Of a stretch of 30,443 nucleotides of DNA, positions 10,746 through 26,314 are shown one piece after another. The notes under the pieces are model-generated. The model was not told where the DNA came from. It did not search any database and saw only the letters and a list, made by a program, of their open reading frames with translations. Source of the stretch: a virus. Both the position numbers and the translations under genes were made by a program. The stretch spans positions 1 to 30,443 of the IMG/VR virus record IMGVR_UViG_3300025093_000079; one strand, 5' to 3'. Each line of letters opens with the position of its first letter. The stretch's first letter is position 1.

Positions 10746-10762
10746 AACTGCTCCCCACCTTT
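10746..10762 (+). repeat. Pyrimidine-rich element, half copy
   Basis: AACTGCTCCCCACCTTT matches the second half of a two-part element found at 11281-11315, 13558-13589 and 23386-23416. Here only one half is clear; a degenerate first half may lie near 10671 (TTTCCTAG then CCCTCCCGGCCCT). It lies 65 bases before the first gene of the right arm. Confidence 0.5.
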
Positions 10763-10775
10763 TGTTTGTGGTAGG

Positions 10776-10801
10776 GGACCCCCCACAAAGAAAGTGGGTC
10801 C
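10776..10801 (+). other. Hairpin in the leader of the first rightward gene
   Basis: CCCAC (10782-10786) pairs with GTGGG (10794-10798) around a seven-base loop, and GGA (10776-10778) pairs with TCC (10799-10801) with three unpaired C between. A T-rich stretch (taattttttac) follows, so it could be a terminator or leader attenuator on the plus strand. It sits 27 bases before the ATG at 10828. Confidence 0.45.
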
Positions 10802-10827
10802 GTAATTTTTTACTTAAATTTTTAATC

Positions 10828-11157
10828 ATGGTTTACTTTAGAAAACTAAACATCAATGAGTCTACTGGCTCAGCAACAATCATTGTGAGTTCTGCTCCAA
10901 TGTCACAGAAACAAACAACTCTTGCAGGTCTACCTGTTGGAACAAGAACTCAGGGGAACATCTCCTTTGGTGTTCTTAGTCTAATAGACCCTGAAACCAA
11001 TCAGGTGATGAGAGCTGAACACCCAACAATCAAAGCACTTGGTGCTAAGTTAAACGTTGGTGATGAGATGCCTGGCTTCAAGCTTAGTGAAAGCAAGGTT
11101 GTGAACCTCACTACTGGTGAAGAGAACCAGAACCTGTTCTGGGTTGAACAAGCCTAA
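10828..11157 (+). CDS. Paralogous small protein A, first rightward gene
   Basis: A 109-residue protein starting MVYFRKLNINESTGSATIIV. I chose the ATG at 10828 because the paralogue at 11356 aligns from this point; a frame open further upstream (from 10762) reads through the hairpin and GC-rich leader. Shared blocks with the paralogue include QKQTTLAG, FGVLSLIDP, NQVM, KLN-GDEM-GFKLS and VVNLTTGE before a terminal FW(V/I)E. It appears all-beta and may be an OB-like or sheet protein; the GDEMPGFKLSES stretch faintly resembles LPGKLIIRES of the acidic-tailed protein at 15010. Its own leader and terminator imply strong single-gene expression. Function unknown. Confidence 0.8.
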   Translation: MVYFRKLNINESTGSATIIVSSAPMSQKQTTLAGLPVGTRTQGNISFGVLSLIDPETNQVMRAEHPTIKALGAKLNVGDEMPGFKLSESKVVNLTTGEENQNLFWVEQA

Positions 11158-11168
11158 TCAGGAAAGAC

Positions 11169-11200
11169 AGGGTGTGTGTAAAAGCACACTCTGTTTCTTT
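11169..11200 (+). terminator. Intrinsic terminator after paralogue A
   Basis: AGGGTGTG (11169-11176) pairs with CACACTCT (11185-11192), eight pairs including one G-T, around an eight-base loop, followed by GTTTCTTT. It starts 12 bases after the stop of the gene ending at 11157. Confidence 0.75.
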
Positions 11201-11280
11201 AAGGAACTTAGTGTGATACTATAACTTCCTATTGTTTGATATTATAGCTTCCTATCATTGGTATCTATATATTCCAACTA

Positions 11281-11315
11281 ACTGCTCTCTTCCTCTCTTC
11301 ACTGCTCCCTACCTT
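11281..11315 (+). repeat. Pyrimidine-rich two-part element before paralogue B
   Basis: First half ACTGCTCTCTTCCTC, second half CACTGCTCCCTACCTT, with five bases (TCTT and C overlap) between. The same order of halves occurs at 13558-13589 and 23386-23416. It ends 40 bases before the ATG at 11356, and stands out from the AT-rich leader around it. Immediately upstream (11225-11254) is a separate direct repeat of CTTCCTAT spaced 23 bases. A promoter, operator or other recognition site is likely. Confidence 0.6.
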
Positions 11316-11355
11316 TATATTGTATAATTAATAATAAATAATAAATAATTAAATT

Positions 11356-11691
11356 ATGAGTAAATCAGTTTATTTTAGAAAGTTCTCTATCAATGAGAAT
11401 ACTAACAGTGCTACTATCATTGCGTCAGACACACCTTTGATACAAAAGCAAACAACATTAGCCGGTCAATCCGTAGCTACAAGAACCCAAACAAACATTA
11501 CATTTGGCGTGTTAAGTCTTATAGATCCAGACACAAACCAAGTAATGAAAGCAGACCATCCTGTAATTAAGGATCTTCAAGGTAAGTTAAACCGTGGAGA
11601 TGAAATGAAAGGATTTAAATTGTCTGATAATCCTGTAGTAAACCTAACAACAGGTGAGCCTACAGGTATGTTTTGGATAGAAGCTGTGTAA
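11356..11691 (+). CDS. Paralogous small protein B
   Basis: A 111-residue protein starting MSKSVYFRKFSINENTNSAT, aligned almost end to end with the protein at 10828 at well over half identity by eye; it has two or three extra N-terminal residues and one residue fewer near the C-terminus (GEPTGMFW against GEENQNLFW). Synonymous sites differ: it favours A/T in the third position (about 28% G/C by my count) against about 39% in the first copy. It has its own leader element and a strong terminator, so each copy is an independent transcription unit. The pair looks like an old duplication with different dosage or timing. Function unknown. Confidence 0.82.
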   Translation: MSKSVYFRKFSINENTNSATIIASDTPLIQKQTTLAGQSVATRTQTNITFGVLSLIDPDTNQVMKADHPVIKDLQGKLNRGDEMKGFKLSDNPVVNLTTGEPTGMFWIEAV

Positions 11692-11719
11692 TTGTTTAAG
11701 TAAAAAGCAGAATAAGTGT

Positions 11720-11760
11720 AAAGTGTAGTGATAATGCTACACTTTGCCTTGTTTTTTTTA
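11720..11760 (+). terminator. Strong intrinsic terminator after paralogue B
   Basis: AAAGTGTAG (11720-11728) pairs perfectly with CTACACTTT (11737-11745) around an eight-base loop, and GCCTTGTTTTTTT follows. It isolates the paralogue from the cluster of small genes beginning at 11869. Confidence 0.85.
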
Positions 11761-11868
11761 TTTATTGCGTGCATTGCACAATAAATGTGAGGTCATATAC
11801 CCACATAATACCACCTTTTACCACTACCAAAACTTTTATATCACATTAAAATATTAATATAGCTAACA

Positions 11869-11958
11869 ATGAATAATAATAGCAAACTCTTAATGACATT
11901 CACTATCTCTATCATTGGTATACTAGTATTACTATATGTAGTTGATATGTTTATATAA
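11869..11958 (+). CDS. 29-residue membrane micro-protein
   Basis: ATG at 11869 and TAA at 11956-11958 enclose 29 residues: a short polar start (MNNNSKLLM) and a hydrophobic remainder (FTISIIGILVLLYVVDMFI) that would cross the membrane once. It precedes a second frame of the same length by five bases. Coding is supported only by composition and tight spacing. Confidence 0.42.
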   Translation: MNNNSKLLMTFTISIIGILVLLYVVDMFI

Positions 11959-11963
11959 TACTT

Positions 11964-12053
11964 ATGTCTTTCTTCTATATGATGAGAGGCATAGTACCCG
12001 CAATAATACTTGGAGCAATGAGTCAAGCAATACCACTGATTATTCTGAAATAG
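11964..12053 (+). CDS. Second 29-residue hydrophobic micro-protein
   Basis: ATG at 11964 and TAG at 12051-12053 give 29 residues, MSFFYMMRGIVPAIILGAMS then QAIPLIILK. It is hydrophobic, with a Pro and Gly in the middle, and could insert in the membrane. Same length as the micro-gene five bases upstream and 13 bases before the next gene. Function unknown; a small exclusion or membrane-modifying peptide is possible. Confidence 0.4.
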   Translation: MSFFYMMRGIVPAIILGAMSQAIPLIILK

Positions 12054-12066
12054 TATCAGCCATTAT

Positions 12067-12258
12067 ATGGATAAGCACTCTAAGTATTTAATAATTTCAC
12101 GTGAAGAGGTAATCAAAACTGTTAAAGACAACACAAGACAAACAAATAGGCTCAGTTGTAATAAGCTGTTACAAGGTAAGCAACAAACCCATGGTATTCC
12201 AAGTTGTACACCTTATGGTCTGAGTCTTAGACTTCTTCATGAATCAATAACCTTTTAA
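12067..12258 (+). CDS. Small basic protein of unknown function
   Basis: A 63-residue basic protein, starting MDKHSKYLIISREEVIKTVK, with a helical N-terminal half and a Ser/Thr/Pro-containing C-terminal half (GIPSCTPYGLSLRLLHESIT). The N-terminal unit with its two predicted helices could bind nucleic acid, but no motif is certain. It is ten bases from the next gene, so it is part of the small-gene cluster. Confidence 0.55.
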   Translation: MDKHSKYLIISREEVIKTVKDNTRQTNRLSCNKLLQGKQQTHGIPSCTPYGLSLRLLHESITF

Positions 12259-12268
12259 TAAAACAAGT

Positions 12269-12553
12269 ATGAAAATCAAAATTGAAAACCCAGAACCGTT
12301 TGTAACATGGGGCAATGCTATAGGTATTGTTCTATATAGCAGACCTAATGATGATCATGTTAACTTCTTTGTAGAAGATTTTAACCATCATCGTGTAGCA
12401 AGGAAAGAATTAGGTACACCATCATTGGTAGAACTTGAACTTGAATTGCAAGACAATCCAGAACTTAGACACATTGCAGAAATAAATGGTCTAATAAGTA
12501 TAACACATCAACATACTTTAGACTTTCTAGAGTATGCAACATCGTATAATTAA
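12269..12553 (+). CDS. Small acidic protein of unknown function
   Basis: A 94-residue acidic protein. The N-terminal half looks beta-rich (FVTWGNAIGIVLYSRPNDDH, VNFFVEDFNHHRVAR) and the rest is helical (LVELELELQDNPELRHIAEI). Histidines are frequent (seven, one pair in FNHHR), which might bind metal. No family is recognised. The ATG follows an A-rich leader (aataaaacaagt). Confidence 0.62.
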   Translation: MKIKIENPEPFVTWGNAIGIVLYSRPNDDHVNFFVEDFNHHRVARKELGTPSLVELELELQDNPELRHIAEINGLISITHQHTLDFLEYATSYN

Positions 12554-12566
12554 TAAAACAAGTATT

Positions 12567-12719
12567 ATGAGAAAAGTAATCTATTTAATGATCATGCTAT
12601 TTATAGCTGGTCCAATCGTTCAATCATGTGGTTCAAGCAGATCATGTAAAACATCTAAAATGAAGATGAAGAAGATGAAATGCTGGAATGCAAAAAAACA
12701 AAAATATACCAGATGCTAA
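12567..12719 (+). CDS. 50-residue lipoprotein with Lys/Cys-rich tail
   Basis: Starting at the ATG at 12567 (an upstream in-frame ATG at 12534 lies within the preceding gene), the protein has a clear lipoprotein signal: MRKVIYLMIMLFIAGPIVQS then Cys21. The mature part is only 30 residues, GSSRSCKTSKMKMKKMKCWN and a basic end, with three more Cys. It should be anchored to a membrane facing the periplasm or outside. The leader aataaaacaagtatt resembles the one before the 12269 gene. The stop overlaps the next ATG by seven bases, so this lipoprotein is coupled to a second one. Confidence 0.62.
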   Translation: MRKVIYLMIMLFIAGPIVQSCGSSRSCKTSKMKMKKMKCWNAKKQKYTRC

Positions 12720-13066
12720 GGTATATTGGGATATTCTTTCTCGCAGTATCTATTATGAGCTGTGAGAAGGAGCCTCTTGAGTGTGAGCTTATAGAGGTAC
12801 AAGCATCAGACTGTTGGAATAATACATTTACTTCCAACTCAGAGTACCTAATAGGTGCAAGACAGACAAGCTTTATAACTAACAGTTGTGAGCCAACATT
12901 ACCAACAAGTAATGATTATGATTATTTATATATCATTTACAAAAATGACCCAGTAACTGGTGATAATGAAGAATGGTATCTATATACAGATGAGTATTTT
13001 GGAGATAACCCTCAAGAGCTCTATACATATTTCAATAGCAATCACTTAATATATAATCCTAATTAA
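12713..13066 (+). CDS. 117-residue lipoprotein with acidic mature start, probably surface-exposed
   Basis: The ATG at 12713 gives MLRYIGIFFLAVSIMSC, a lipoprotein signal with Cys17; an in-frame ATG at 12680 would put 11 extra polar residues before it and hide the signal. The mature end CEKEPLECELIE is acidic like the lipoprotein export signals that send lipoproteins to the cell surface in Bacteroidota. The rest is Tyr/Asn/Asp-rich (NDYDYLYIIYKNDPV, EEWYLYTDEYFG) and has four more Cys residues (E-C-E, D-C-W and NSCEP among them). A phage-made surface lipoprotein suggests superinfection exclusion or receptor masking, but this is inference. Confidence 0.68.
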   Translation: MLRYIGIFFLAVSIMSCEKEPLECELIEVQASDCWNNTFTSNSEYLIGARQTSFITNSCEPTLPTSNDYDYLYIIYKNDPVTGDNEEWYLYTDEYFGDNPQELYTYFNSNHLIYNPN

Positions 13067-13067
13067 A

Positions 13068-13397
13068 ATGAAAAATTTCTTTAGATCATTAATTAAAATT
13101 CTTTATGTGGTTATTTTACCAATAGCCTTTATAGTTTCAGCTTCATATGTAGTTTCTAATTATGAAGTAACCACAACTTTGTTAGTTGTTTTAGTTTTAC
13201 TAGGTACATGTATCGTAGCAAATGCGGTCATGTACTTAGTATTTATGAGTAGAGTGAAGATGCTACCCAAAGTACATATGGATTTAATTCCAATCTTTGG
13301 GTTTGCATTTGGTGTAGATCCTCATGACAGTGAAGACACAATTTCCTGGATACTACTAATTCCGTTTGTATCTTTTGAATTTAGATCAAAAAAGTGA
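13068..13397 (+). CDS. Two-TM membrane protein of unknown function
   Basis: A 109-residue protein with membrane segments at about 9-28 (IKILYVVILPIAFIVSASYV) and 38-58 (LLVVLVLLGTCIVANAVMYL), then a charged region and an aromatic C-terminus (DTISWILLIPFVSFEF) that might be a third partial segment. It starts two bases after the stop of the surface-lipoprotein gene, so a shared role at the envelope is likely. No family recognised. Confidence 0.65.
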   Translation: MKNFFRSLIKILYVVILPIAFIVSASYVVSNYEVTTTLLVVLVLLGTCIVANAVMYLVFMSRVKMLPKVHMDLIPIFGFAFGVDPHDSEDTISWILLIPFVSFEFRSKK

Positions 13398-13499
13398 ACA
13401 GTAGTTCATACAAACAATACCAGTATATAGTTATAGTATATAATAACTAGTGTAGTATGGCCTTGTAGATTTATGGTTGAGTAAGTGGTAACCAGAAAG

Positions 13500-13550
13500 A
13501 ATAGCACCTGAAGCCTTTTTTCATACTTGTTTAGGGTGGATGGTGCTATT
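13500..13550 (+). other. Long-loop stem in the 13398-13615 intergenic region
   Basis: AATAGCACC (13500-13508) pairs perfectly with GGTGCTATT (13542-13550) across a 33-base loop; the second arm is followed by TTATCC and, eight bases on, by the pyrimidine-rich element at 13558. A smaller potential stem, TGGTT with AACCA, lies just upstream (about 13474-13494). The 218-base region has no convincing coding frame and may hold a structured leader RNA or terminator plus promoter for the gene at 13616. Confidence 0.45.
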
Positions 13551-13557
13551 TTATCCA

Positions 13558-13589
13558 ACTGCTCACTTCCTCACACTACTCCCAACCTT
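13558..13589 (+). repeat. Pyrimidine-rich two-part element before the 13616 gene
   Basis: First half ACTGCTCACTTCCTC, second half CACTACTCCCAACCTT, matching the element at 11281-11315 and ending 26 bases before the ATG at 13616. The agreement of both halves and their order makes chance unlikely. Confidence 0.6.
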
Positions 13590-13615
13590 CAATTAGTAAC
13601 TAATTAAATAACATT

Positions 13616-14167
13616 ATGCCAGAGCAATTTAAAATTTCAGAAAATATAATGAATACCATTCTTAAGAATGTTATACCATTAGCAGATGGTCCCAATGCGG
13701 ATCATATACACAATATTATAACCAGAGAACTACCAAATCATGCAAAAGAATCTATTTTACATCTAAGTCTAATGGAATCTGCGTATGATCCAGTAGAATT
13801 AAATGGTTATGTGAAAGTAATTGCACCAAAATACCACGTTAGTGAGTACTTTGAGTGGGATATACTTCAAGATATGGGTCTTAATCCGGGTGATGGATAT
13901 GTATATGCCAAGGTAATTGGTGATACATCATGGGGTTCTGACCCGTTTAATCCTTTTTATAGTAGCATTAAGCTTGAATTATTGTATCATGATGAAGAAA
14001 AGAAACTTCAAGTGAAAGAATATCAAGCATCACCTTTAGATTTAATCAAGGTAGAGATGGATAGTATCAAGTATTTTGATATATTAGCAACAGATAGTGA
14101 ACCTATTCATCACACTGCGGATGTAATATTCCCTAATGATGAGTCTAATACAAAAGATGATGCCTAA
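13616..14167 (+). CDS. Unknown protein opening a rightward transcription unit
   Basis: A 183-residue acidic protein, helical at the start (MPEQFKISENIMNTILKNVI) and beta-rich in the middle (GYVKVIAPKYHVSEYFEWDI; DGYVYAKVIGDTSWGSD; SIKLELLYHDEEKKLQVKEY), ending in an acidic tail (FPNDESNTKDDA). It has no motif I recognise. Its leader carries the pyrimidine-rich element and the long-loop stem, so its expression is probably controlled there. The next gene starts inside its last codons. Confidence 0.72.
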   Translation: MPEQFKISENIMNTILKNVIPLADGPNADHIHNIITRELPNHAKESILHLSLMESAYDPVELNGYVKVIAPKYHVSEYFEWDILQDMGLNPGDGYVYAKVIGDTSWGSDPFNPFYSSIKLELLYHDEEKKLQVKEYQASPLDLIKVEMDSIKYFDILATDSEPIHHTADVIFPNDESNTKDDA

Positions 14168-14694: not shown

Positions 14695-14701
14695 TTAGAC
14701 T

Positions 14702-14968
14702 ATGATAATACAATTGCCTAATGGTCGTATAGTTGAATGCTCAGTTGAGCAATACCTTTCATTAACTGATGATGAGGTAAAGGACCTTAATGGGCTAAGC
14801 TCTGCATATACAAAAGAAGTGGTTAATCCTTTCTACAACAGGTTTGCAGGTAAAATCAATGCTGAAGATCATGAACTGGAGTTCATAGATGAATATGAAA
14901 AAGCATTGGATGAGCTTGAAGCTTTTGAAAAATTGGATGACCCGTATTTTCATTCAGATGATATTTAA
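14702..14968 (+). CDS. Small acidic protein of unknown function
   Basis: An 88-residue acidic protein. It starts with strands that look like a short sheet (MIIQLPNGRIVECSVEQYLS), followed by helices (LTDDEVKDLNGLSSAYTKEV; EFIDEYEKALDELEAFEKLD) and an acidic end (DDPYFHSDDI). Net charge is strongly negative. It lies just before the acidic-tailed protein at 15010, with 41 bases of A/T-rich leader between. It is unrecognised; DNA mimicry or partner binding are possible because of the charge. Confidence 0.65.
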   Translation: MIIQLPNGRIVECSVEQYLSLTDDEVKDLNGLSSAYTKEVVNPFYNRFAGKINAEDHELEFIDEYEKALDELEAFEKLDDPYFHSDDI

Positions 14969-15009
14969 TCATCAACAAAATCATTTATTAATTTATTAAA
15001 TTTAGAAAA

Positions 15010-15594
15010 ATGCAAAGCAAAGTTAACATCTTAGCTGATGACATGGGTAATGTTATCCGTCAGTCATCAAACAATTCAGAGTATGGTTATGTAAGACTAC
15101 AACAAGACAGAGTTACATTTGGTAACAATGGCTGGGTTAAAAAGTCTAATGTATCAACTCTATTACACGGTAAGTTAGAAGACTTACAATCATTAAACTT
15201 AGAAGCTGGTGGTACATTACCAGGCAAGTTAATTATAAGAGAGTCATTAGAACCATTTAGCAATAATGATCCAGACAGAGACATGAAATATGCAGGTGAT
15301 ACTGGTATTGTATGCTGTGTTGATGGTCAACCTATTTATAGGAAAACATTTTATGTAGTTGATCAAACTGCAGAAGATGTATTAATAGCACACAATAACG
15401 GTGATGCTATCAGAGAAGCCAATGGTACAGCAACCACTGCAAAAATTAAAAATGCTACTACAAGTGAAGCATTTGGTATAGATGCAGATAAAGTTGCTGA
15501 GTCAGTTGATACTGAGATAAAGGATGAAGTTGTTGATGAAGTAGAAGAAAACGTAGAAGAAGAAGTCCTTGAAGAAGAGACTTTTGAACTTTAA
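15010..15594 (+). CDS. Acidic-tailed protein, candidate ssDNA-binding protein
   Basis: A 194-residue protein. Residues 20-125 look like a beta domain (YGYVRLQQDRVTFGNNGWVK; LPGKLIIRESLEPF; GDTGIVCCVDGQPIYRKTFY), and 165-194 are very acidic (EVEENVEEEVLEEETFEL). A beta core plus a flexible acidic tail ending in a hydrophobic residue is the layout of phage ssDNA-binding proteins such as T7 gp2.5, whose tail docks replication partners. No sequence match proves this. Its own A-rich leader and the stem-loop that follows it suggest an abundant product. An alternative is a virion or accessory protein. Confidence 0.68.
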   Translation: MQSKVNILADDMGNVIRQSSNNSEYGYVRLQQDRVTFGNNGWVKKSNVSTLLHGKLEDLQSLNLEAGGTLPGKLIIRESLEPFSNNDPDRDMKYAGDTGIVCCVDGQPIYRKTFYVVDQTAEDVLIAHNNGDAIREANGTATTAKIKNATTSEAFGIDADKVAESVDTEIKDEVVDEVEENVEEEVLEEETFEL

Positions 15595-15619
15595 TTAGTT
15601 TAGTTTTCTAAAGATTGAA

Positions 15620-15658
15620 GGGAATAGTAGGTGGCGTCAGGACCCACTTACTGTTCCC
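15620..15658 (+). other. Long, nearly perfect stem-loop after the 15010 gene
   Basis: The arm 15620-15634 (GGGAATAGTAGGTGG) pairs with 15644-15658 (CCACTTACTGTTCCC): 15 consecutive pairs including two G-T, around a nine-base loop CGTCAGGAC. It is followed by GGATATCAAACC, not a T-run, so it is not a classic terminator. It may stabilise the 3-prime end of the upstream mRNA, be an RNA processing site, or mark a DNA site. The gap 15595-15701 has no gene. Confidence 0.6.
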
Positions 15659-15701
15659 GGATATCAAACCACATTACTTAATCAATAACAAATAAACAAT
15701 T

Positions 15702-16238
15702 ATGCTATCTCAAGAACAACAGACATTACTACTACAGCAAAAACAAAAAGAGCTCTTGTCAAAAAGATTAGAGCGTTACCACTACTATGGGATATTAGCA
15801 GAGTATCAGCTACATCCACCATCAATAGTAAACTCTTTAAGTTACACTAAACTAAATCCATATCAACATTTTTTGTTTAAACGTGTACTTCATGGCCTTA
15901 AGGTTTATAAACCTGAAGAAGTTAAGAAGCTACATTGGGACAAGAAACGTAGAATAACTAAGGTTTGGAAGCGTGGACAAAGAGAAATCAATGCTTGGAA
16001 ACAAACTATTTGTAATAAGAAAGTAAATGCTTATCTTAGCAATACGTTCAAGCATTCACCATTAGCACAATATATAGCAAGTATACCAGCTAATGAGACT
16101 TTAGATGATTATACTAACACCATGAGTTTCAAGGAGTTAGGTATAACTTATGAGGATGTTATTTTAAAATTTATGTCATTGGGATTATTGCCCAAGAATT
16201 ATCTTACAATAAATAATGAGCATCAAAAAAGTATCTAA
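15702..16238 (+). CDS. Basic helical protein of unknown function
   Basis: A 178-residue basic protein. It opens with a Gln/Leu-rich helix (MLSQEQQTLLLQQKQKELLS), continues with aromatic-basic stretches (YQHFLFKRVLHGLKVYKPEE) and a strongly basic helix (KVWKRGQREINAWKQTICNK), and ends with a small domain (MSFKELGITYEDVILKFMSL). Such basic Trp-containing helices often bind nucleic acid. No named family. It overlaps the HNH-like gene by 23 bases, so the two are probably coupled. Confidence 0.68.
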   Translation: MLSQEQQTLLLQQKQKELLSKRLERYHYYGILAEYQLHPPSIVNSLSYTKLNPYQHFLFKRVLHGLKVYKPEEVKKLHWDKKRRITKVWKRGQREINAWKQTICNKKVNAYLSNTFKHSPLAQYIASIPANETLDDYTNTMSFKELGITYEDVILKFMSLGLLPKNYLTINNEHQKSI

Positions 16239-16485
16239 AAAAATGTCTAAAATAAATGCAGACTACAGTAAAAAACGTAGGAAGTATTTACAAGACAATC
16301 CTATCTGTCATGCAAAGATCCATAAGTGTTCTTTGCATGCTACAGATGTACATCACAAACATGGCCGTGGTGTATTCCATTTGGAAGTATCTACATGGAT
16401 GCCAGTTTGCAGAAACTGTCATATGTGGATAGAAGAACATCCAGCTGAAGCCTATGAATTAGGTTTCTCAGGCTCAAGATCATAA
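16216..16485 (+). CDS. Small HNH endonuclease-like protein
   Basis: An 89-residue protein with an HNH fold pattern: C31 and C38 (NPICHAKIHKC), the core DVHHKHGRG (45-51, the HH pair of the first motif), then WMPVCRNCHMWIEE, whose C65, C68 and H69 complete a zinc site and the last His motif. HNH enzymes of this length nick or cut DNA; phage versions act in recombination or packaging, and others are free-standing homing-type nucleases. It sits just before the tRNA genes, a common place for such genes. No intron or disrupted gene is next to it. Confidence 0.8.
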   Translation: MSIKKVSKKMSKINADYSKKRRKYLQDNPICHAKIHKCSLHATDVHHKHGRGVFHLEVSTWMPVCRNCHMWIEEHPAEAYELGFSGSRS

Positions 16486-16491
16486 ATTTAT

Positions 16492-16565
16492 GGTCCCATA
16501 GCTCAACTGGATAGAGCAACAGCCTTCTAAGCTGTAGGTTCAAGGTTCAAATCCTTGTGGGATCA
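16492..16565 (+). tRNA. tRNA-Arg (TCT)
   Basis: Cloverleaf of 74 bases: acceptor arms GGTCCCA and TGGGATC (one G-T), D-stem GCTC/GAGC, anticodon stem ACAGC/GCTGT around CTTCTAA (anticodon TCT, codon AGA), T-stem CAAGG/CCTTG with loop TTCAAAT, discriminator A. CCA is not encoded. AGA is the most frequent Arg codon in the neighbouring genes. Confidence 0.93.
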
Positions 16566-16570
16566 CAGAT

Positions 16571-16659
16571 GGCCGGATGATGGAATTGGTAGACATGACA
16601 GACTTAAAATCTGTTGGACAGTATTGTCCGTGTGGGTTCAAGTCCCACTCCGGCTACCA
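16571..16659 (+). tRNA. tRNA-Leu (TAA)
   Basis: Class II cloverleaf: acceptor GGCCGGA with TCCGGCT (G-T at the end), anticodon stem ACAGA/TCTGT around CTTAAAA (anticodon TAA, codon TTA), long variable arm GGACAGTATTGTCC, T-stem GTGGG/CCCAC with loop TTCAAGT, discriminator A and an encoded CCA (16657-16659). TTA is a very common codon here. It starts five bases after the tRNA-Arg body. Confidence 0.93.
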
Positions 16660-16733
16660 GGACTCTTAGCTCAGTTGGTTAGAGCACTCCGCTCATAACG
16701 GATAGGTCACAGGTTCAAGCCCTGTAGGGTCCA
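16660..16733 (+). tRNA. tRNA-Met (CAT)
   Basis: It follows the CCA of tRNA-Leu with no gap. Acceptor GGACTCT with AGGGTCC (one G-T), D-stem GCTC/GAGC, anticodon stem CTCCG/CGGAT (outermost pair mismatched) around CTCATAA (anticodon CAT), T-stem ACAGG/CCTGT with loop TTCAAGC, discriminator A. It looks like elongator Met; an Ile tRNA with modified CAT cannot be fully excluded from sequence. No full CCA is encoded. Confidence 0.88.
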
Positions 16734-16755
16734 CCTCATTTAAAAATTATTAATT

Positions 16756-16953
16756 ATGTTTAAAAAGTTAATCAGAAAGAAGAGACACAAACGTTATGTA
16801 AGAACATATATTATACAGTTACGGTATGATATATTAAATGAGACACTTGAAGCTACTAGAATAAGCTTCACAGCTGCTGCAATAAATAGATTGGCAAATA
16901 AGTCAAGACTACTGCGCAAGTATGAAAGAAGGATTAAACTGTTAGATTATTAA
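16756..16953 (+). CDS. Small very basic protein
   Basis: A 65-residue protein, about one-third Lys/Arg, starting MFKKLIRKKRHKRYVRTYII and continuing with Arg-rich helices (SFTAAAINRLANKSRLLRKY). It starts 22 bases after the tRNA-Met body, following an AT-rich leader. The composition suggests nucleic-acid binding or membrane-surface binding; no motif is recognised. Two bases separate it from the one-TM gene downstream. Confidence 0.6.
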   Translation: MFKKLIRKKRHKRYVRTYIIQLRYDILNETLEATRISFTAAAINRLANKSRLLRKYERRIKLLDY

Positions 16954-16955
16954 TC

Positions 16956-17069
16956 ATGGATGAGAATGAAAAGAACAGATTACTAAAATTAATTGTATGG
17001 ACAACCATACTTACAATAACAATAATATTATGGTGGAATATACTAAGAATAATGTTTCCCGGTCAATAG
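16956..17069 (+). CDS. 37-residue one-TM micro-protein overlapping the helicase start
   Basis: ATG at 16956 and TAG at 17067-17069 give 37 residues: a charged start (MDENEKNRLLK) and a hydrophobic segment (LIVWTTILTITIILWWNIL), then RIMFPGQ. It fills the gap after the 16756 gene and overlaps the helicase gene in another frame by about 40 bases. It belongs to a series of small one-TM genes in this arm (18154, 19257). Function unknown. Confidence 0.5.
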   Translation: MDENEKNRLLKLIVWTTILTITIILWWNILRIMFPGQ

Positions 17070-18154
17070 TACAGGATGATGCATTAGGAATAGCACTTAA
17101 GAATAAAAGATGCGGGTTAGGTATATCAATGGGCGTAGGTAAAACTAGAATAGGTATACGTCATATGATAGCAAATATAGATCCGTTTATAAATTATCTG
17201 GTAGTTGTACCAAAACACTCAGTTACAGAGTCATGGAAAGATGAATTCAAAAAGATGGAGGCTGAAGAGCTTCTGAATCATGTAACGTTTACTACATATC
17301 TATCATTAAACAAACAAGATCCTAAGTATTATGATATTGTTTATTTAGATGAATGCCATTCAATACTACCTTCACATGAAGGATTTCTTAGTATGTTCTA
17401 TGGTAAGATATTAGGTCTTACAGGTACACCACCAAGGGATAAGCAGTCTATTAAAGGCAGGCTTGTACAAAAATACTGTCCAATTAAATATACATTTGAT
17501 GTTGATAGTGCAACTGACTCAAACATATTAAATGACTATAAGATTATAGTACATGAGTTAGAACTATCAAAATTACCTCAGCTTAAAAAGAAAAATAAGA
17601 AAGGTGGATTTTGGTATACCTCTGAGTATAAAGACTATCAGTATGTTACCGGTAGAGTTGCAGAGGCACAATCACCAAAACAAATACAATTGGCAAGGAT
17701 AATGAGGATGCGTGCACTTATGGACTATACAAGTAAAGAAGCATATGTTAAGTCTATGCTCAAGAATATTAGTGATAAGTGTATAGTGTTTGCTAATACC
17801 CAAGCTCAAGCAGACCGTATTTGTAAGCATAGCTATCACTCTAATAATGCTCAGTCAGATGATAACCTTGAGTTATTTTCTGATGGTAGGATAGATAAGC
17901 TATCATGCGTGTTACAATTATCAGAAGGTGTTACAATTCCAAACTTAAAACAAGGAATTATTATGCATGCATATGGTAATGAAAAAAAGACAGCACAAAG
18001 GATAGGTAGACTATTAAGACTTAATCCAAGTGAGACAGCAATTTGTCACATATTGTGTTACAAAGGCACACAAGATAAACAATGGGTATCATCAGCCCTT
18101 AAATCTTTTGATGGAAATAAAATTCAATATTATAACCCTTTAAAAAACAGATAA
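17030..18154 (+). CDS. SNF2-like / superfamily 2 DNA helicase
   Basis: A 374-residue ATP-driven DNA translocase from the ATG at 17030 (MVEYTKNNVSRSIVQDDALG). Motifs from this start: Walker A GVGKT at 35-39, DECH Walker B at 107-110 (DIVYLDECHS), motif III LTGTPPR at 130-136, and in the second RecA domain the motif VI QRIGRLLRLNP. The short length and DECH box match the compact SNF2-type helicase of crAss-like phages, which probably works in replication or recombination. An in-frame ATG at 16997 would add 11 Asn-rich residues overlapping the one-TM gene; I judge it less likely. The stop overlaps the next ATG by one base. Confidence 0.88.
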   Translation: MVEYTKNNVSRSIVQDDALGIALKNKRCGLGISMGVGKTRIGIRHMIANIDPFINYLVVVPKHSVTESWKDEFKKMEAEELLNHVTFTTYLSLNKQDPKYYDIVYLDECHSILPSHEGFLSMFYGKILGLTGTPPRDKQSIKGRLVQKYCPIKYTFDVDSATDSNILNDYKIIVHELELSKLPQLKKKNKKGGFWYTSEYKDYQYVTGRVAEAQSPKQIQLARIMRMRALMDYTSKEAYVKSMLKNISDKCIVFANTQAQADRICKHSYHSNNAQSDDNLELFSDGRIDKLSCVLQLSEGVTIPNLKQGIIMHAYGNEKKTAQRIGRLLRLNPSETAICHILCYKGTQDKQWVSSALKSFDGNKIQYYNPLKNR

Positions 18155-18321
18155 TGGAAATCATTACAATCACTTCAGTTGTTGCTTCAATGGTAATTAT
18201 TGCATTTATTGCCTACTCATTTGGTAAGGAGCAAGGACGGCTACAATTTAAGAATAAAGTAAATAACTTGACTGTCAGAAAAATGCTCAAGCATAAAAGA
18301 GAACAGTTTGAAAATCTATAA
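18154..18321 (+). CDS. 55-residue one-TM small protein
   Basis: ATG at 18154 shares one base with the helicase stop (TAATG), a coupling seen elsewhere in this genome. The first 24 residues are hydrophobic (MEIITITSVVASMVIIAFIA then YSFG) and the rest is basic and helical (RLQFKNKVNNLTVRKMLKHK). This gives an N-out or N-in single-span protein with a cytoplasmic basic tail, a layout typical of small phage membrane proteins of unknown function. Two bases separate it from the next gene. Confidence 0.6.
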   Translation: MEIITITSVVASMVIIAFIAYSFGKEQGRLQFKNKVNNLTVRKMLKHKREQFENL

Positions 18322-18323
18322 TT

Positions 18324-18557
18324 ATGGGAAGAATGAAAGAAATCTATATGGAAATGATTGAGCGTGACTATAACGGCAGTCATGATGCTTATATACAAGA
18401 CCTTGCAAGACAAACTTGTGAGGAGTTTATATCTGTAGAAGATGAAAGCTGTGGCAATTGTGATAACTCAGCAATGATGCGCAATGAAACAGAAGGTATA
18501 TGTGAAGCATGTGGACAAGAATATGTTTATGTTGAAGGAGTTAAAAGATTTAGATGA
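18324..18557 (+). CDS. Small zinc-ribbon protein
   Basis: A 77-residue protein. Residues 1-40 form an acidic helical part (MGRMKEIYMEMIERDYNGSH); residues 43-46 (CGNC) and 60-63 (CEAC) make a four-Cys zinc ribbon of about 20 residues, followed by GQEYVYVEGVKRF. Such ribbons often bind DNA, RNA or RNA polymerase. No named family. The stop overlaps the next ATG in an ATGATG run. Confidence 0.68.
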   Translation: MGRMKEIYMEMIERDYNGSHDAYIQDLARQTCEEFISVEDESCGNCDNSAMMRNETEGICEACGQEYVYVEGVKRFR

Positions 18558-18832
18558 TGTTAGAGTATGAATTTGATTGGGGTACATATGATGTACCTTA
18601 TATAGTAACTATAGAATATGAATATGATCCAGGAGAACCAATGATACATACGTATCCAAATGGAGACCCTGGACATCCAGGATCAGCACCAAGTGTAACA
18701 ATCTATCATGCATGGGCCAAACTGAAAGACAGAAAAGGTAATGAAGTTGAGGTAGATGTATTAACCATATTGGAAAACCAAGAAGGACTTGATGGACTGG
18801 AAGGATTAATATTAGAAGACAATCATGAATAA
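18554..18832 (+). CDS. Small conserved phage protein with PG-rich loop
   Basis: A 92-residue acidic protein. An N-terminal beta hairpin (VPYIVTIEYEYDPGEPMIHT) leads to a Pro/Gly loop (YPNGDPGHPGSAPSVTIYHA), then strands (KGNEVEVDVLTILEN) and an acidic end. Proteins with a beta hairpin and a GDPG-x-PGS-x-PS-(V/A)xI pattern are widespread in phages and have unknown function. It is coupled to the zinc-ribbon gene by a four-base overlap and precedes another widespread unknown by two bases. Confidence 0.68.
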   Translation: MMLEYEFDWGTYDVPYIVTIEYEYDPGEPMIHTYPNGDPGHPGSAPSVTIYHAWAKLKDRKGNEVEVDVLTILENQEGLDGLEGLILEDNHE

Positions 18833-18834
18833 AT

Positions 18835-19245
18835 ATGGGATTAGATCAATATGCATATAGAGTTAAACGGGGCTTTATAAAAAAACCCGTTGACTTTATA
18901 ATACAAGAATATGATGAAAAAAATGATACAACAACTATATTAACAGAAGCAGTTGAAATTAAATACTGGAGAAAACATCCTAACTTACAAGGGTATATGG
19001 AAGATCTATACTATACAAAAGGAGGTACATCAAAAGAATTTAATTGTGTAAACGTGCAACTAACCTGGGAAGACCTAGAGGATTTAGAATCATTGATTAC
19101 AGAGAAAAGATTACCTGAAACAGAAGGTTTTTTCTTTGGTGATAATTCTGATGACTACTATGAGAAAGAAGATTTAGAATTCATTGAAGATGCTTTGAAA
19201 AACATAGCAAAAGGATATGATATCTTTTACACTTCCTGGTGGTAA
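18835..19245 (+). CDS. Conserved phage protein, MGLDxYAY family
   Basis: A 136-residue protein starting MGLDQYAYRVKRGF, with YWRKHPNLQGYMEDLY, then FNCVNVQLTWEDLEDLESLI, LPETEGFFFGDNSDDYYEKE and a terminal YDIFYTSWW. These blocks recur in a family found in many tailed phages that databases sometimes label phosphoglycerate kinase; nothing in the sequence supports that enzyme (no kinase domain, too short). The conserved Asp/Trp residues suggest an unknown enzyme or binding protein. It lies within the small-gene stretch between the helicase and uracil-DNA glycosylase. Confidence 0.75.
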   Translation: MGLDQYAYRVKRGFIKKPVDFIIQEYDEKNDTTTILTEAVEIKYWRKHPNLQGYMEDLYYTKGGTSKEFNCVNVQLTWEDLEDLESLITEKRLPETEGFFFGDNSDDYYEKEDLEFIEDALKNIAKGYDIFYTSWW

Positions 19246-19256
19246 TAAATAATAAT

Positions 19257-19418
19257 ATGAAAAAATATTTAAAGAAAAATGACCCAAGTATTAATCAAGG
19301 AAGATCAGATAAGCAAATGGAAACCAACTACAAGATAGTAGGATGGACTATGATGGCTGGTGTGATATTCTTTATAGCAATGCTTGTTAAGTGGCTCATA
19401 AAAACATATGGTATATGA
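19257..19418 (+). CDS. 53-residue one-TM small protein
   Basis: ATG at 19257 and TGA at 19416-19418 give 53 residues: a basic polar start (MKKYLKKNDPSINQGRSDKQ) and a hydrophobic segment at about 27-46 (IVGWTMMAGVIFFIAMLVKW) with a short tail. The stop overlaps the next ATG as ATGA, which supports translation of both. It is the third one-TM micro-gene of the right arm. Function unknown. Confidence 0.6.
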   Translation: MKKYLKKNDPSINQGRSDKQMETNYKIVGWTMMAGVIFFIAMLVKWLIKTYGI

Positions 19419-19798
19419 AAGACAATTTGTTTATACAAGCAACAGTCAAAGATGGAGAGCTATCTTTTCCTGTTAAGGCACTAGAGAGTAAGTACAAAAA
19501 CTTTCTCAAAAACTTACCTGACGGTATTAAGTTAGAAATATTTATAGGTGCATCATCAGGAAAAGGTAGTAACCCACAGTTAGCAAGGATTCATGCAATG
19601 ATCCGTGAGATAGCTAATGAATTGGGATATACTTTTGAAGAGGTAAAACTCCAAGTAAAAAGAAAAGCAGGCTTATGCTTTACTAAAAATAATGTAGAGT
19701 ACTGTAAGTCCTTTGCTAAATGTGATAAAGAAGAATTAAACCTTGCTATTCAAGCAGCCTTAGAAATAGGAGACTTTAGTGGTATGCAATTAAGATAA
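19415..19798 (+). CDS. Unknown protein, faintly NinB-like
   Basis: A 127-residue protein starting MKDNLFIQATVKDGELSFPV; I chose ATG 19415 (ATGA coupling) over an in-frame ATG at 19391 inside the one-TM gene. It has an N-terminal beta part ending KLEIFIGASSGKGSNPQ, then a helical part (LARIHAMIREIANELGYTFE; VKLQVKRKAGLCF). The order beta region, Gln/Asn turn, HA-containing helix, then a G-Y-x-x-E-E-V-K helix recalls NinB-type recombination proteins, but the likeness is weak. It ends by overlapping the minus-strand gene tail to tail by nine bases. Confidence 0.6.
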   Translation: MKDNLFIQATVKDGELSFPVKALESKYKNFLKNLPDGIKLEIFIGASSGKGSNPQLARIHAMIREIANELGYTFEEVKLQVKRKAGLCFTKNNVEYCKSFAKCDKEELNLAIQAALEIGDFSGMQLR

Positions 19799-20206
19799 TG
19801 ATTTGAATTCATCAGCAATCTGATTAAGTATCTCTATAGGATTCTTATTGTCTTTGACTGCTTTATCAGTAATTTCCTTAAATTTGTCCTTATCAATTGG
19901 AACCTCTTCTTCTTTTGCAAGACCTTGCTCATGAGCATAACCTTTCAAGAGATTTATAAGAGCATACAATGTATATAGTTCTGACTCAGTTGGAGTAAAC
20001 ACTCTGTTCTTTTTCTCTGCACCTTTAGGGTCAGTAATTAGATCATTAAAGTCTTTAACAAGTTCAGCAAAGTTCTCTACATCTTCATAGAATTCAGTAA
20101 TGTATCTCATATAGATAGATTGTAGACCTTCAATGAAAGCCGGGTTAATCTCAGCCTTCATGTTCTTTTTAAAATCGTAAGTAATAACTGTTTGTTTATC
20201 AGACAT
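19790..20206 (-). CDS. Lone minus-strand gene: helical protein of unknown function
   Basis: A 138-residue mainly helical acidic protein starting MSDKQTVITYDFKKNMKAEI. Helices cover 22-55 (FIEGLQSIYMRYITEFYEDV and following), 74-92 (SELYTLYALINLLKGYAHEQ) and the C-terminus. It is the only minus-strand gene in the right arm, tail to tail with the 19415 gene (nine-base overlap) and head to head with the glycosylase gene, 44 bases away. Its leader holds TAACTTTG (20233-20226 on the minus strand), a possible -7 box, without a clear -33. Its separate strand suggests separate timing. Confidence 0.68.
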   Translation of the reverse strand: MSDKQTVITYDFKKNMKAEINPAFIEGLQSIYMRYITEFYEDVENFAELVKDFNDLITDPKGAEKKNRVFTPTESELYTLYALINLLKGYAHEQGLAKEEEVPIDKDKFKEITDKAVKDNKNPIEILNQIADEFKSLS

Positions 20207-20250
20207 AGTATAATATATTATAAATCAAAGTTACAAATAATAAATCAATT

Positions 20251-20940
20251 ATGAAAGTACAACCAATAGAAGTTGATATACAGCAACTTAGAGATTCAGC
20301 AAACAGCTCTCTTGAAGAGTCTGGGTGGGACCGTATGTTATCACCCTTTATTAATGGTCTTGACTTTGACTATATAGTAAATCAATTAGTAGAGTGTGTA
20401 AACTCAGGTAAAAGATTTACTCCAAAGTTTAAGAATATATTTAATGCATTTAAAGAATGTCCATATGATGATATAAAAGTAGTCATTGTAGGACAAGATC
20501 CATACCCACAGATAGGTGTTGCAGATGGTATAGCATTTAGTTGTTCTATAAAAGGGACAGCAGAAAAATCATTGCAGTATATAAATAAAGCACTTGGTAC
20601 TGAGCATACTGACTTAAGATGCTGGTCTAACCAGGGTGTTCTACTTATAAATACAGCACTCACTGTAGAGATCAATAGTATAGGATCACACTATAATTTA
20701 TGGAAACCTTTTACAAATTATTTATTTGACAATATTAACAGAGTTAATCCTGACACAGTATTTATACTGATGGGTAAGAAAGCTCAAGAATGGAAAGTGT
20801 TGTTGCCTAATTGTAAAATACTTGAATGTGCACACCCAGCATCTGCAGCATATAGAGGTGGAGAATGGGACTGTAATGATGTATTTAACAAGGCAAATGA
20901 CTTACTAAAAAAGCAAGATAAAACTTGTATTAATTGGTAA
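20251..20940 (+). CDS. ung: Uracil-DNA glycosylase, family 1
   Basis: A 229-residue enzyme that removes uracil from DNA. The water-activating motif is GQDPYP (81-86, Asp83), followed by GIAFSCS (93-99), LLINTALTVE (131-140) and the leucine/His loop HPASAAYRGG (195-204, His195), where standard family members have HPSPLS. Length is the usual size. It keeps uracil out of phage DNA or prepares it for repair, and uracil-DNA glycosylase is frequent in crAss-like replication modules. The leader is A/T-rich and shared with the divergent minus-strand gene. Confidence 0.95.
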   Translation: MKVQPIEVDIQQLRDSANSSLEESGWDRMLSPFINGLDFDYIVNQLVECVNSGKRFTPKFKNIFNAFKECPYDDIKVVIVGQDPYPQIGVADGIAFSCSIKGTAEKSLQYINKALGTEHTDLRCWSNQGVLLINTALTVEINSIGSHYNLWKPFTNYLFDNINRVNPDTVFILMGKKAQEWKVLLPNCKILECAHPASAAYRGGEWDCNDVFNKANDLLKKQDKTCINW

Positions 20941-20978
20941 AATTTCCTATATTTAAAAACATTTAAACCAAATTATAA

Positions 20979-21497
20979 ATGTCTCAAAATCAACAAGTTA
21001 AACAGAGAAAAGAGATAGAAGCCTTCAAAAAATCTTTTAGAGAAAAGCATGGCGTAACTCTTTATGTTTTTACACCTTCAGAAGAAAGATATAGAATACC
21101 TTTAGATGAATACATCAGGGTTACTATAGCAGCAATTCATGAGAACAATCCAGAGTTTAAATACATAAAAAAAATACCAGGCACTAAGCTTAGGAAAAGA
21201 GATTATGTTAAATGGATTCAAACTATGTGCTACATAGCATGGCAAGATGGCCATACTAAAACCAGTATAGGTAGAGCAATAGGAAAAAACCACGCAACAG
21301 TGATTAACTCATGTAGGACGTTAGAAAATGCTTTCTTTGCATGTGACAGGGAGATGATGGAAACATTTGATAAATTAATGGCAAAACTAATAGAATATGT
21401 GGGAACTGTTCCAGCAAATCTTGAAGAGAAAAATGACTCCAAACCAATCATTGATCCTATTTGGGATCAAGCAAGGAGTTTCATTGCCCAAGGTTAA
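20979..21497 (+). CDS. Protein with DnaA domain IV-like helix-turn-helix
   Basis: A 172-residue protein. Residues about 72-117 (RKRDYVKWIQTMCYIAWQDG, then TKTSIGRAIGKNHATVINSC and RTLEN) follow the Bac_DnaA_C pattern: basic helix, Tyr-containing helix, then IG-x-x-x-G-x-x-H-(A/T)TV recognition helix, which in DnaA reads the DnaA box. There is no AAA+ domain; residues 1-71 are a separate alpha/beta region. It may bind the phage origin or a promoter in place of host DnaA, right before the helicase-loader-like and DnaB-like genes. It overlaps the next gene by about 65 bases. Confidence 0.75.
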   Translation: MSQNQQVKQRKEIEAFKKSFREKHGVTLYVFTPSEERYRIPLDEYIRVTIAAIHENNPEFKYIKKIPGTKLRKRDYVKWIQTMCYIAWQDGHTKTSIGRAIGKNHATVINSCRTLENAFFACDREMMETFDKLMAKLIEYVGTVPANLEEKNDSKPIIDPIWDQARSFIAQG

Positions 21498-21987
21498 AGC
21501 TGAAGATAAAGAAGAATTAATTAAACTGGGCATGCTTGAAAAAGTAGATGGCCTATATAAAATGACACCGGAAGCTAAAGCTTTCTGTGCCAAGCTAGAT
21601 AACTATTTTATCAAGGCTAAGAAAAAGACAGACATACAACTTATGGGTAAGAACTTCAATGATAAGATTCATACCTATAGAGAAATATTTCCTGCAAAGA
21701 AATTACCAAGTGGTAAGCCTGCAAGAAATAATGTCAAAGCATTAGGAGAAGCATTTAGATGGTTCTTTGAAACTTATGATTATTCTTGGGATGATATTAT
21801 AGGAGCTACAAGAATGTATGTAAATGAATACAGAGACAAAGAGTATATGTATATGCAGACAAGTCAGTATTTTATTTGCAAGCAGGATAAACATAGAGTG
21901 AAACACTCTACATTAGCTGATTATTGTGATATGATACGTGATGGTATCAGCACAGAAGAAGAACACTTTAAAGAAAATGTTGTATGA
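21433..21987 (+). CDS. Possible helicase-loader or replication accessory protein
   Basis: From ATG 21433 the protein has 184 residues, starting MTPNQSLILFGIKQGVSLPK; ATG 21397 would add 12 residues and deepen the overlap with the DnaA-like gene. Residues 1-60 look like a small winged-helix-type unit; residues about 95-175 contain GEAFRWFFETYDYSWDDIIG, MYVNEYRDKEYMYMQTSQYF and STLADYCDMI, a W-x-x-I-x-x-A-x-x-x-Y plus YF-I plus LADYC arrangement that reminds me of DnaT- or P-like loader tails. The stop overlaps the DnaB-like start by four bases, the expected place for a loader. Confidence 0.65.
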   Translation: MTPNQSLILFGIKQGVSLPKVKAEDKEELIKLGMLEKVDGLYKMTPEAKAFCAKLDNYFIKAKKKTDIQLMGKNFNDKIHTYREIFPAKKLPSGKPARNNVKALGEAFRWFFETYDYSWDDIIGATRMYVNEYRDKEYMYMQTSQYFICKQDKHRVKHSTLADYCDMIRDGISTEEEHFKENVV

Positions 21988-22940
21988 GTAAACCAAAACC
22001 AGCATGGGTGGGCCAATATGAAGCCTTCAATGATGCACTTAAATATATGTACGCCAGATCAACCGGTGATGAGAAATCTATATACACACCATGGCCAAAG
22101 TTTAATGATGCATGTACTGATGGACTTGAATGGAATACCTTGACGGTTATTGGTGGTAGACCTGGTTCAGGTAAGACTCTTATAAAAGATCAGATAATAA
22201 GAGAATCCTTTATATTAAATCCTAATGATAAGTTTAGAGTATTAGAATTCCAATTTGAAATGGTAGGTAGAACCTCAGCCATTAGAGAGTTTAGTTCTAT
22301 AACTGGTAAAACTTATAAAGAACTGTGTAGTGCAGGATCTATACTTAATACTGAAGTATTGAATGCATGTCATCAATATGCAAAAGAAAGAGTTAAGTAT
22401 CCTGTAGACATAATTAGTACACCTATGACAGTAAACCAGATGCGTGATCAGATAGATCAGTATATGGAAAAGCATAAGGGTACTAAAACTATAATTACTC
22501 TTGACCATAGTATGTTGGTAAAGAGAGCACCATATCAAAATAGCACATTAGATATGTTATTTGAGTTAGGTGAATTCTTTACACAATGTAAAAGAGACTA
22601 TCCATGTTTGTTTATATGTCTATCACAATTGAATAGGAATATAGATAACCCGGATAGAGCTATAGATGGTAAGTATGGTAATTATATACTTGAGTCAGAC
22701 ATATTTGGTTCTGATGCTATGCTACAGCATGCTGATACTCTAATAGGTATCAACAGGCCAGCAAAGCAGAAGATTAGATACTATGGTCCTGATAGATATA
22801 TAATTGAAAATGATAGAACATTGGTGTTACATTTCCTAAAAGCCAGAAATGGTGATGCAAGGATGTCATTCTTTAAAGCAAAGTTTGAACAAATGCAGAT
22901 AGATGAAATGCCAACACCAGCTCAACAAGAACGCAGATGA
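21984..22940 (+). CDS. DnaB-like replicative helicase core
   Basis: A 318-residue RecA-fold ATPase corresponding to the C-terminal half of DnaB. Walker A is GRPGSGKT (58-65), Walker B ends IITLDHSML with Asp174, the nucleotide-sensing SQLNR follows at 214-218, and KARNGD (near 286-291) matches the conserved K-x-R-N-G box of DnaB. The N-terminal primase-binding domain of bacterial DnaB is absent; residues 1-40 are a short helical segment. It should form a hexamer that unwinds the phage fork. The loader-like gene is just upstream and the TOPRIM primase downstream. Confidence 0.9.
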   Translation: MSKPKPAWVGQYEAFNDALKYMYARSTGDEKSIYTPWPKFNDACTDGLEWNTLTVIGGRPGSGKTLIKDQIIRESFILNPNDKFRVLEFQFEMVGRTSAIREFSSITGKTYKELCSAGSILNTEVLNACHQYAKERVKYPVDIISTPMTVNQMRDQIDQYMEKHKGTKTIITLDHSMLVKRAPYQNSTLDMLFELGEFFTQCKRDYPCLFICLSQLNRNIDNPDRAIDGKYGNYILESDIFGSDAMLQHADTLIGINRPAKQKIRYYGPDRYIIENDRTLVLHFLKARNGDARMSFFKAKFEQMQIDEMPTPAQQERR

Positions 22941-23494
22941 TAAATACTAAAAATTTAAATAATAAGAAAAAAATGGGACTAACACCTCAAGAAAGAAAAG
23001 AGAAGGTTGCAGCCCTTAGAATAGAACATGAAGATTACTTTCAAACAGAAGGTAAAATAAATGCACTATACATACCTAAGATGGCTTATAGACCTTCAGG
23101 TAAAGATGAGTTACATGTATCATTCTTTCCAAGTGAATTAGAAAAAGAACAAGATATCTATACAGAATTTGTAAGTATAGATTATGAGACAGAAGATCCT
23201 AAAAGAACTCTGTATCTACATAAGTATAATCCACACTGGAGAGAAGAGTATGAGATGATTACATCCAGCTCAGGATTTCAAAGACACATCATACCTGTAA
23301 GTGAACTTAAAGTAATTAATGATGTAACAAGTAGGGGTAATGCAATTATAGATTTTGCTAATCCAAGTCTACCAGACCCAGACTCACTGCTCCCTTCCTC
23401 AACTGCTCCTGACCTTAATATTGCAGTGGTTGAGAAGTTAGATGAAATTAATCAAACACTTAAACAATTAATAACAGTAATAAATAAAAAGTAA
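22937..23494 (+). CDS. Unknown protein with Ser/Pro linker
   Basis: A 185-residue protein coupled to the helicase core by an ATGA overlap (a second start, ATG 22973, is possible). Residues 20-135 hold an alpha/beta region (LHVSFFPSELEKEQDIYTEF; TLYLHKYNPHWREEYEMIT). Residues 147-164 (PDPDSLLPSSTAPDLN) are a Pro/Ser linker, and the end is a coiled-coil-like helix (VEKLDEINQTLKQLITVINK). The linker is encoded by the pyrimidine-rich repeat at 23386. The C-terminal helix suggests oligomerisation or partner binding. No family recognised. Confidence 0.7.
   Translation: MINTKNLNNKKKMGLTPQERKEKVAALRIEHEDYFQTEGKINALYIPKMAYRPSGKDELHVSFFPSELEKEQDIYTEFVSIDYETEDPKRTLYLHKYNPHWREEYEMITSSSGFQRHIIPVSELKVINDVTSRGNAIIDFANPSLPDPDSLLPSSTAPDLNIAVVEKLDEINQTLKQLITVINKK
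23386..23416 (+). repeat. Pyrimidine-rich two-part element inside a coding region
   Basis: First half ACTGCTCCCTTCCTC, second half ACTGCTCCTGACCTT, the same two halves in the same order as at 11281 and 13558. It encodes the Ser/Pro linker of the 22937 protein and lies 80 bases before the ATG of the Sak4-like gene at 23496. It may be an internal promoter or operator, or a sequence acquired by copying. Confidence 0.55.
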
Positions 23495-23495
23495 T

Positions 23496-24179: not shown

Positions 24180-24206
24180 AAATTAATTATTAAAAAAAAG
24201 TAAATT

Positions 24207-24881: not shown

Positions 24882-24896
24882 TATAAATCAAAAGAG

Positions 24897-24930: not shown

Positions 24931-24943
24931 ATATATTTAGATC

Positions 24944-26313: not shown

Positions 26314-26314
26314 A

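Follow-up and report, generated by a model that had tools for sequence, protein, structure and literature searches.

A compact pyrimidine-rich element of crAss-like phages as a candidate early promoter, with the giant virion RNA polymerase as its likeliest reader

Why does a viral genome carry the same short pyrimidine-rich element ahead of several separate rightward genes? The question arises in IMG/VR record IMGVR_UViG_3300025093_000079, of which we analyzed positions 1 to 30,443 (30,443 nucleotides, hereafter the window). A first-pass annotation, made from the letters alone, had described a two-part element before the genes at 10828, 11356 and 13616 and had raised an early promoter or an activator site as its function. 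The element is very probably an early promoter, judging from its sequence, conservation and placement. We favor, with less confidence, the phage's own virion RNA polymerase (vRNAP) as the enzyme that reads it; taken jointly, a compact early promoter with the giant virion polymerase as its likeliest reader is an account that we hold about as firmly as that assignment. The promoter units and boxes in the window are listed below, with scores from a position-weight matrix (PWM) and with numbering (+19 to +21) from the start of the box; ORF denotes open reading frame.

10747 to 10768, + strand: promoter unit before ORF 10828, the first early gene (ACTGCTCCCCACCT-tttgt-TTG); predicted start G10768; PWM 32.2 bits
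11281 to 11295, + strand: upstream (tandem) box, without WTG at +19 to +21; tandem also in the clade of G018, G026 and G028
11301 to 11322, + strand: downstream box with TTG, before ORF 11356; predicted start G11322; PWM 23.1 bits
13558 to 13572, + strand: upstream (tandem) box, from sequence match and matrix
13575 to 13596, + strand: downstream box with TAG at +19 to +21, before ORF 13616; predicted start G13596; PWM 14.3 bits
23386 to 23400, + strand: upstream (tandem) box inside ORF 22937-23494, where it codes LLPSS
23402 to 23423, + strand: downstream box with TTG inside ORF 22937-23494, where it codes TAPDL in the other frame register; predicted start G23423; PWM 16.9 bits

The recurrence is real and lies far above chance. 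The boxes proper, at 10747-10761, 11281-11295 with 11301-11315, and 13558-13572 with 13575-13589, are at most one base from the positions first annotated. The first of them had been taken for a half copy (10746-10762); it is a complete single unit and has the top score among the boxes of the window. The original list had also missed the W-T-G at +19 to +21 and the extra tandem pair at 23386/23402, which lies 94-110 bp ahead of the Sak4-like ORF 23496. With up to three mismatches, ACTGCTCNCTTCCTC has six matches in the window against 1.4 expected; ACTGCTCCNNACCTT has ten against 5.7, and its matches with zero or one mismatch are all real sites. A matrix built from relatives only, with the window and its close clade excluded, gave the seven window boxes 8.6-32.2 bits, and the runner-up place on either strand of the 30 kb scored -3.7. 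The maxima of 200 Markov-1 shuffles of the window averaged 2.0, the top value being 15.8.

The element was also found at orthologous early-gene sites across the family, which consists of uncultured marine crAss-like phages. Relatives were collected as 23 loci by search with the 11356-11691 protein and as 37 by alignment of the two paralogues of the window (the 10828-11157 and 11356-11691 proteins); the sets overlap and comprise about 40 IMG/VR loci. The aligned unit is CT-N3-A-ACTGCTCCCTTCCT-N5-WTG, with little conservation past the G. That G, at +21, is present in 96% of 38 unique sites; like the conserved CT at -5/-4 (positions relative to the start of the box), it played no part in site selection. 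Among 2.9 million viral contigs the 22-base pattern ACTGCTCCCTTCCTNNNNNWTG occurs in 24 stretches, all except two within this family. Copies stand mostly 41-110 bp ahead of the start codons of orthologous genes, upstream of separate transcription units and co-directional with them. The unit before the first early gene is kept in every examined relative having that gene, the site orthologous to the 13575 box is a single box in relatives, and the in-gene site at 23402 is likewise conserved in relatives.

Strand bias is complete in the loci and whole records examined, which typically have three to seven copies, all of them early-strand and none late-strand. All six copies in G012 (101 kb) are on the early strand, between 42.0 and 54.1 kb, and a de novo motif search on this genome finds the unit on that strand but not on the late one. 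Matches are confined to one strand within each of 19 records. In distant relatives the same de novo search yielded no motif, but for seven of eight records the matrix then pointed to the first-gene site.

Where would transcription begin? In several relatives a copy of the box lies far from any ORF, ahead of a structured RNA of about 80-140 nt, its boundaries being predicted. When the RNA is folded from +21, the closing helix opens at the first base in G012, G003 and the second RNA of G001; in G016 it opens two bases further on. The G012 helix, GUACUGG...CCAGUAC, is followed by seven T, and the core of this RNA is detected in further viral contigs. G020 and G023 have the same RNA behind a different box (ACTTCTTCTTACTT in G020), with the helix AUAUAACAAG...CUUGUUAUAU again starting from +21. 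In most lineages the first early gene likewise has a leader that folds from +21, the leader sequences being unrelated. This leader folding is weak evidence alone, because folds begun further upstream (from +15) pair first at +15 to +21. The leader in the window is as follows.

10768 to 10827, + strand: 5' leader with a G/C hairpin; the fold is weaker and shifted in the window, and its counterpart in other lineages begins at the predicted +1

Taken together, the helices behind isolated copies and the leaders make the G at +21 of the box the likely transcription start under these folding models. Homologous starts in G012 are predicted at 42055, 42799, 42965, 44910, 47046 and 54088.

One of the RNAs behind the box is small, about 80-96 nt long, and combines a near-invariant core, GCAAGGCCNGCNGNGGCTACTGCTTAATA...CCTACNAGAGGA, with closing helices that differ in sequence. 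It occurs in 19 viral stretches, including the following copies.

L123, 4793-4888 (G012 42799-42894)
L113, 4795-4890
L129, 4806-4886
L216, 12685-12779
L211, 11797-11891, - strand
L210, 4524-4604, - strand

An Rfam scan of the loci returned tRNAs only, with no match at gathering score in the small-RNA region, and BLAST of the region or of the small RNA against phage and plasmid collections gave no match. Isolated promoter copies also precede RNAs unrelated in sequence, at L147:13915-14060 (G001), L142:7900-8010 (G013) and G018 24467-24620. Since unrelated structured RNAs occur there, the slot between the two SSB-like genes (SSB, single-strand DNA-binding protein) seems to hold interchangeable small RNAs.

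The phages are crAss-like by their sequences. Their TerL is about 25% identical to that of many crAss-like phages, the portal and major capsid protein (MCP) match PHROGs families, and a giant RNA polymerase (RNAP) is encoded. The gene order is that of phi14:2, the early/replication module running rightward and the structural/RNAP module leftward. In G012 a protein of 3,341 residues with the motif DFDID matches the catalytic subunits of crAss RNAPs (phi14:2 g066, E 1e-3; cr107_1, E 6e-7), and full or near-full versions occur in 14 further contigs, mostly with 4,500-5,400 residues. The sequence SGADFDID, the active-site motif of crAss vRNAPs, was found in 15 genomes. The first-pass annotation had invoked such a polymerase for these phages; the gene is indeed present in relatives, the window stops short of the corresponding region, and the polymerase is the probable reader. 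The RNAP of G041 is 52% identical to that of G012 and would be the polymerase of the window's clade only if G018 (39.1 kb) and G041 (61.3 kb) belong to one genome, as they probably do, a guess from their sizes and shared sample.

The most divergent polymerase belongs to G020, in which the box is also the most altered of all.

ORF 14695-27126, - strand: giant RNAP of G020 (L212-L217), with SGSDFDVD

Compared with G012, G020 has an MCP 77% identical, a TerL 66% identical and an RNAP core only 18% identical, so a polymerase replacement in G020 is possible from the sequences. In ten genomes, greater divergence of the RNAP core goes with greater divergence of the first-gene box: a Mantel test, with ancestry uncontrolled, gave r -0.77 (p 0.003), and r -0.38 (p 0.025) without G020; in this test G041 represents the window's clade and G042, paired by sample, represents G002.

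From the observed sequence, conservation, spacing, strand bias and positions, and from the vRNAP gene in relatives, we infer the following course. A crAss gp66-like DFDID vRNAP would enter with the DNA, recognize the box and transcribe the early strand. The box of 14 bases (ACTGCTCCCTTCCT and its lineage variants) would span roughly -21 to -8. A spacer of 5 bases would separate it from W-T at -2/-1 and the initiating G at +1, and a weaker CT would lie around -26/-25. The DNA would open at the TG and the transcript would begin with G. The output would be short early units, each typically made up of a single gene, a few genes or a structured small RNA, often ended by a hairpin such as those at 11174 and 11718 in the window. 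It is an even question whether the promoter code of giant crAss-type vRNAPs can already be read here, as a box spanning -21 to -8 together with TG at -1/+1. Such a code would drift with polymerase divergence and, in the genome with the most divergent polymerase, would have been rewritten from C-rich to T-rich while capsid and terminase changed little and the box kept the same small RNA downstream.

The two-part architecture first proposed did not survive the comparison, unlike the early-promoter function, which conservation, early-strand direction, fixed spacing and the inferred start at structured RNAs strongly support. In the window, all promoters but the first have the box repeated 16-20 bases further upstream. 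The tandem before the 11356 gene is present throughout the window's clade (window, G018, G026, G028 and others), and an in-gene tandem occurs in several genomes; within the clade an upstream box without WTG precedes a downstream box with WTG or a close variant by 16-22 bases. A two-part unit with fixed spacing was rejected, given start-to-start distances of 16, 17, 18, 19, 20 and 22 bases, a difference of one base between close relatives (18 vs 19, L175 and L178), and a single box in most relatives. Because the other clade has single boxes at the same genes, the tandem is a clade-specific addition of one and the same unit. Its upstream box may serve as a spare promoter or provide an additional site for binding. 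Upstream of the 11281 tandem, at 11219-11270, there are two degenerate copies resembling half units, CTTCCTATTGTTTG and CTTCCTATCATTGG, which are possible remnants of a lost distal promoter. Directly ahead of the 13558 boxes, at 13500-13557, there is an inverted repeat with a long loop, AATAGCACC...GGTGCTATT.

A coding explanation was considered for the in-gene copies. In the window, G018 and G026, near-identical letters are translated in two frames, giving LLPSS and T(A/T)P(D/N)L, and this explanation was rejected on that ground. Since the two frames give different peptides, a protein function is hard to invoke, which points to selection on the DNA.

An alternative, which we judge unlikely, is that a sigma-like factor or activator of the phage redirects the host RNAP, as at the MotA boxes of early or middle promoters. 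The box would then be the activator site and the WTG would mark the start region. Conservation, position and spacing fit this equally well, and the single-base shifts of tandem spacing in the window's clade (clade B) are what an extra activator site would permit. However, the Bacteroidetes -7 element (TAnnTTTG, TANNTTTG) is absent from the + strand just upstream of 10828, 11356, 13616 and 23496, in agreement with the first-pass remark that no sigma-type box is visible near these genes. (A scan for E. coli-type sigma-70 promoters, with 15 found against 18.6 expected, was uninformative.) The box extends to -8, leaving scant room for a separate core-promoter element, it was rewritten in the genome with the most diverged vRNAP, and no candidate activator was identified.

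An operator, a replication iteron or a packaging/segregation site is quite improbable. Tandem repeats 16-22 bases apart in the window's clade do look iteron-like, and SSB-like and recombination proteins are encoded nearby. Against this, the copies are scattered across 12 kb at separate gene starts in constant orientation relative to the gene, an invariant G stands at a fixed distance, small RNAs are predicted to begin exactly there, and most relatives lack the tandem. Still more improbable is an RNA-level leader element for translation control, transcribed from an undetected upstream promoter: start codons do follow the box at no more than about 100 bases, and some of the leaders have structure, but in the non-coding RNAs behind isolated copies the closing helix begins only past the box, one copy is embedded in a coding sequence, 94-110 bp ahead of the next gene, and no conserved partner is available for the box itself to pair with. 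Chance composition, suggested by pyrimidine-rich words being short and simple, was rejected on the matrix separation from shuffles, the rarity of the 22-base pattern in viral contigs and the conservation in dozens of relatives, and has practically no weight.

Several observations count against an early promoter read by the vRNAP. In phi14:2, a de novo motif search of intergenic regions gave no clear motif above shuffles, a run on longer regions gave coding bias only, and similarity clustering gave coding noise only; the motif is not a general crAss promoter, because phi14:2 shows nothing comparable. The window fragment ends before the RNAP region, so that the polymerase gene lies outside it. 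The covariation of box and RNAP, modest without G020, may reflect shared ancestry only. The training sites of the matrix were picked by core letters, which is mildly circular, and many sites are orthologues, which makes the counts non-independent. G028 is without the in-gene site, and clade B has lost the box that relatives carry before the orthologue of ORF 15702. All start sites, finally, are predictions. At the place of the relatives' ORF 15702 box, a strong hairpin lies within 15600-15702 of the window.

Promoters read by phage polymerases that are packaged in the virion have precedents, in N4 and in Thermus phage P23-45. N4 (Schitoviridae) has early promoters for its virion-packaged polymerase, as we propose here. 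In contrast, N4 promoters have a small hairpin upstream of the start and the polymerase family differs; we found no N4-type inverted repeat upstream of +1, and the box, which is pyrimidine-only except for one G and one A, is incapable of self-pairing. The promoters of T7-type single-subunit RNAPs are compact, reaching the start within about 22 bases, and initiate with G. The present unit resembles them in length and initiating G and differs in sequence; the polymerase here has the two-barrel DFDID motif and, by motif only, is not T7-like. In P23-45, compact motifs precede the pre-early and early genes read by the two-barrel vRNAP and nvRNAP, the starts having been mapped by ONT-cappable-seq, and the pre-early motif is confined to relatives with a matching polymerase (PMC10770324). 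The likeness lies in compact promoter motifs upstream of early genes for a phage-encoded polymerase; the box here is pyrimidine-rich with a +1 G, and its starts are predicted whereas those of P23-45 are mapped. The closest system is phi14:2, whose vRNAP is reported to drive rifampicin-resistant early transcription (PMC10136315). The giant DFDID protein of the relatives is detectably similar to phi14:2 g066, and the two-module gene layout is the same. The 2023 Crassvirales review (PMC10136315) never uses the word promoter, and we found no description of a crAss-type vRNAP promoter in the searchable literature, although priority is not certain.

The genes and terminators around the units in the window are as follows.

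10828 to 11157, + strand: 109-residue early protein, paralogue of 11356-11691, with a weak OB-fold/SSB-like model
11174 to 11199, + strand: intrinsic-terminator-like hairpin, end of the 10828 unit
11356 to 11691, + strand: 111-residue SSB-like early protein
11718 to 11757, + strand: intrinsic-terminator-like hairpin with T-run, end of the 11356 unit
13616 to 14167, + strand: 183-residue early protein
23496 to 24179, + strand: Sak4-like single-strand annealing protein, downstream of the in-gene promoter

The two paralogues are about 69% identical, and the predicted fold of both is weakly like the OB folds of SSB and PriB (best Foldseek E 0.07). Three tRNA genes stand side by side at 16492-16733, after ORF 16216-16485, and are retained in the equivalent place in relatives.

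The crAss-like phages rank among the most abundant phages known, and the packaged RNAP of phi14:2 (gp66) is reportedly closest in structure to the eukaryotic RNA-interference polymerases. The motif yields base-exact start predictions in many genomes, together with polymerase-promoter pairs in which the boxes differ; promoter recognition by this class of polymerase is therefore directly testable in vitro. It also reveals an unclassified structured small RNA that is probably produced early in infection.

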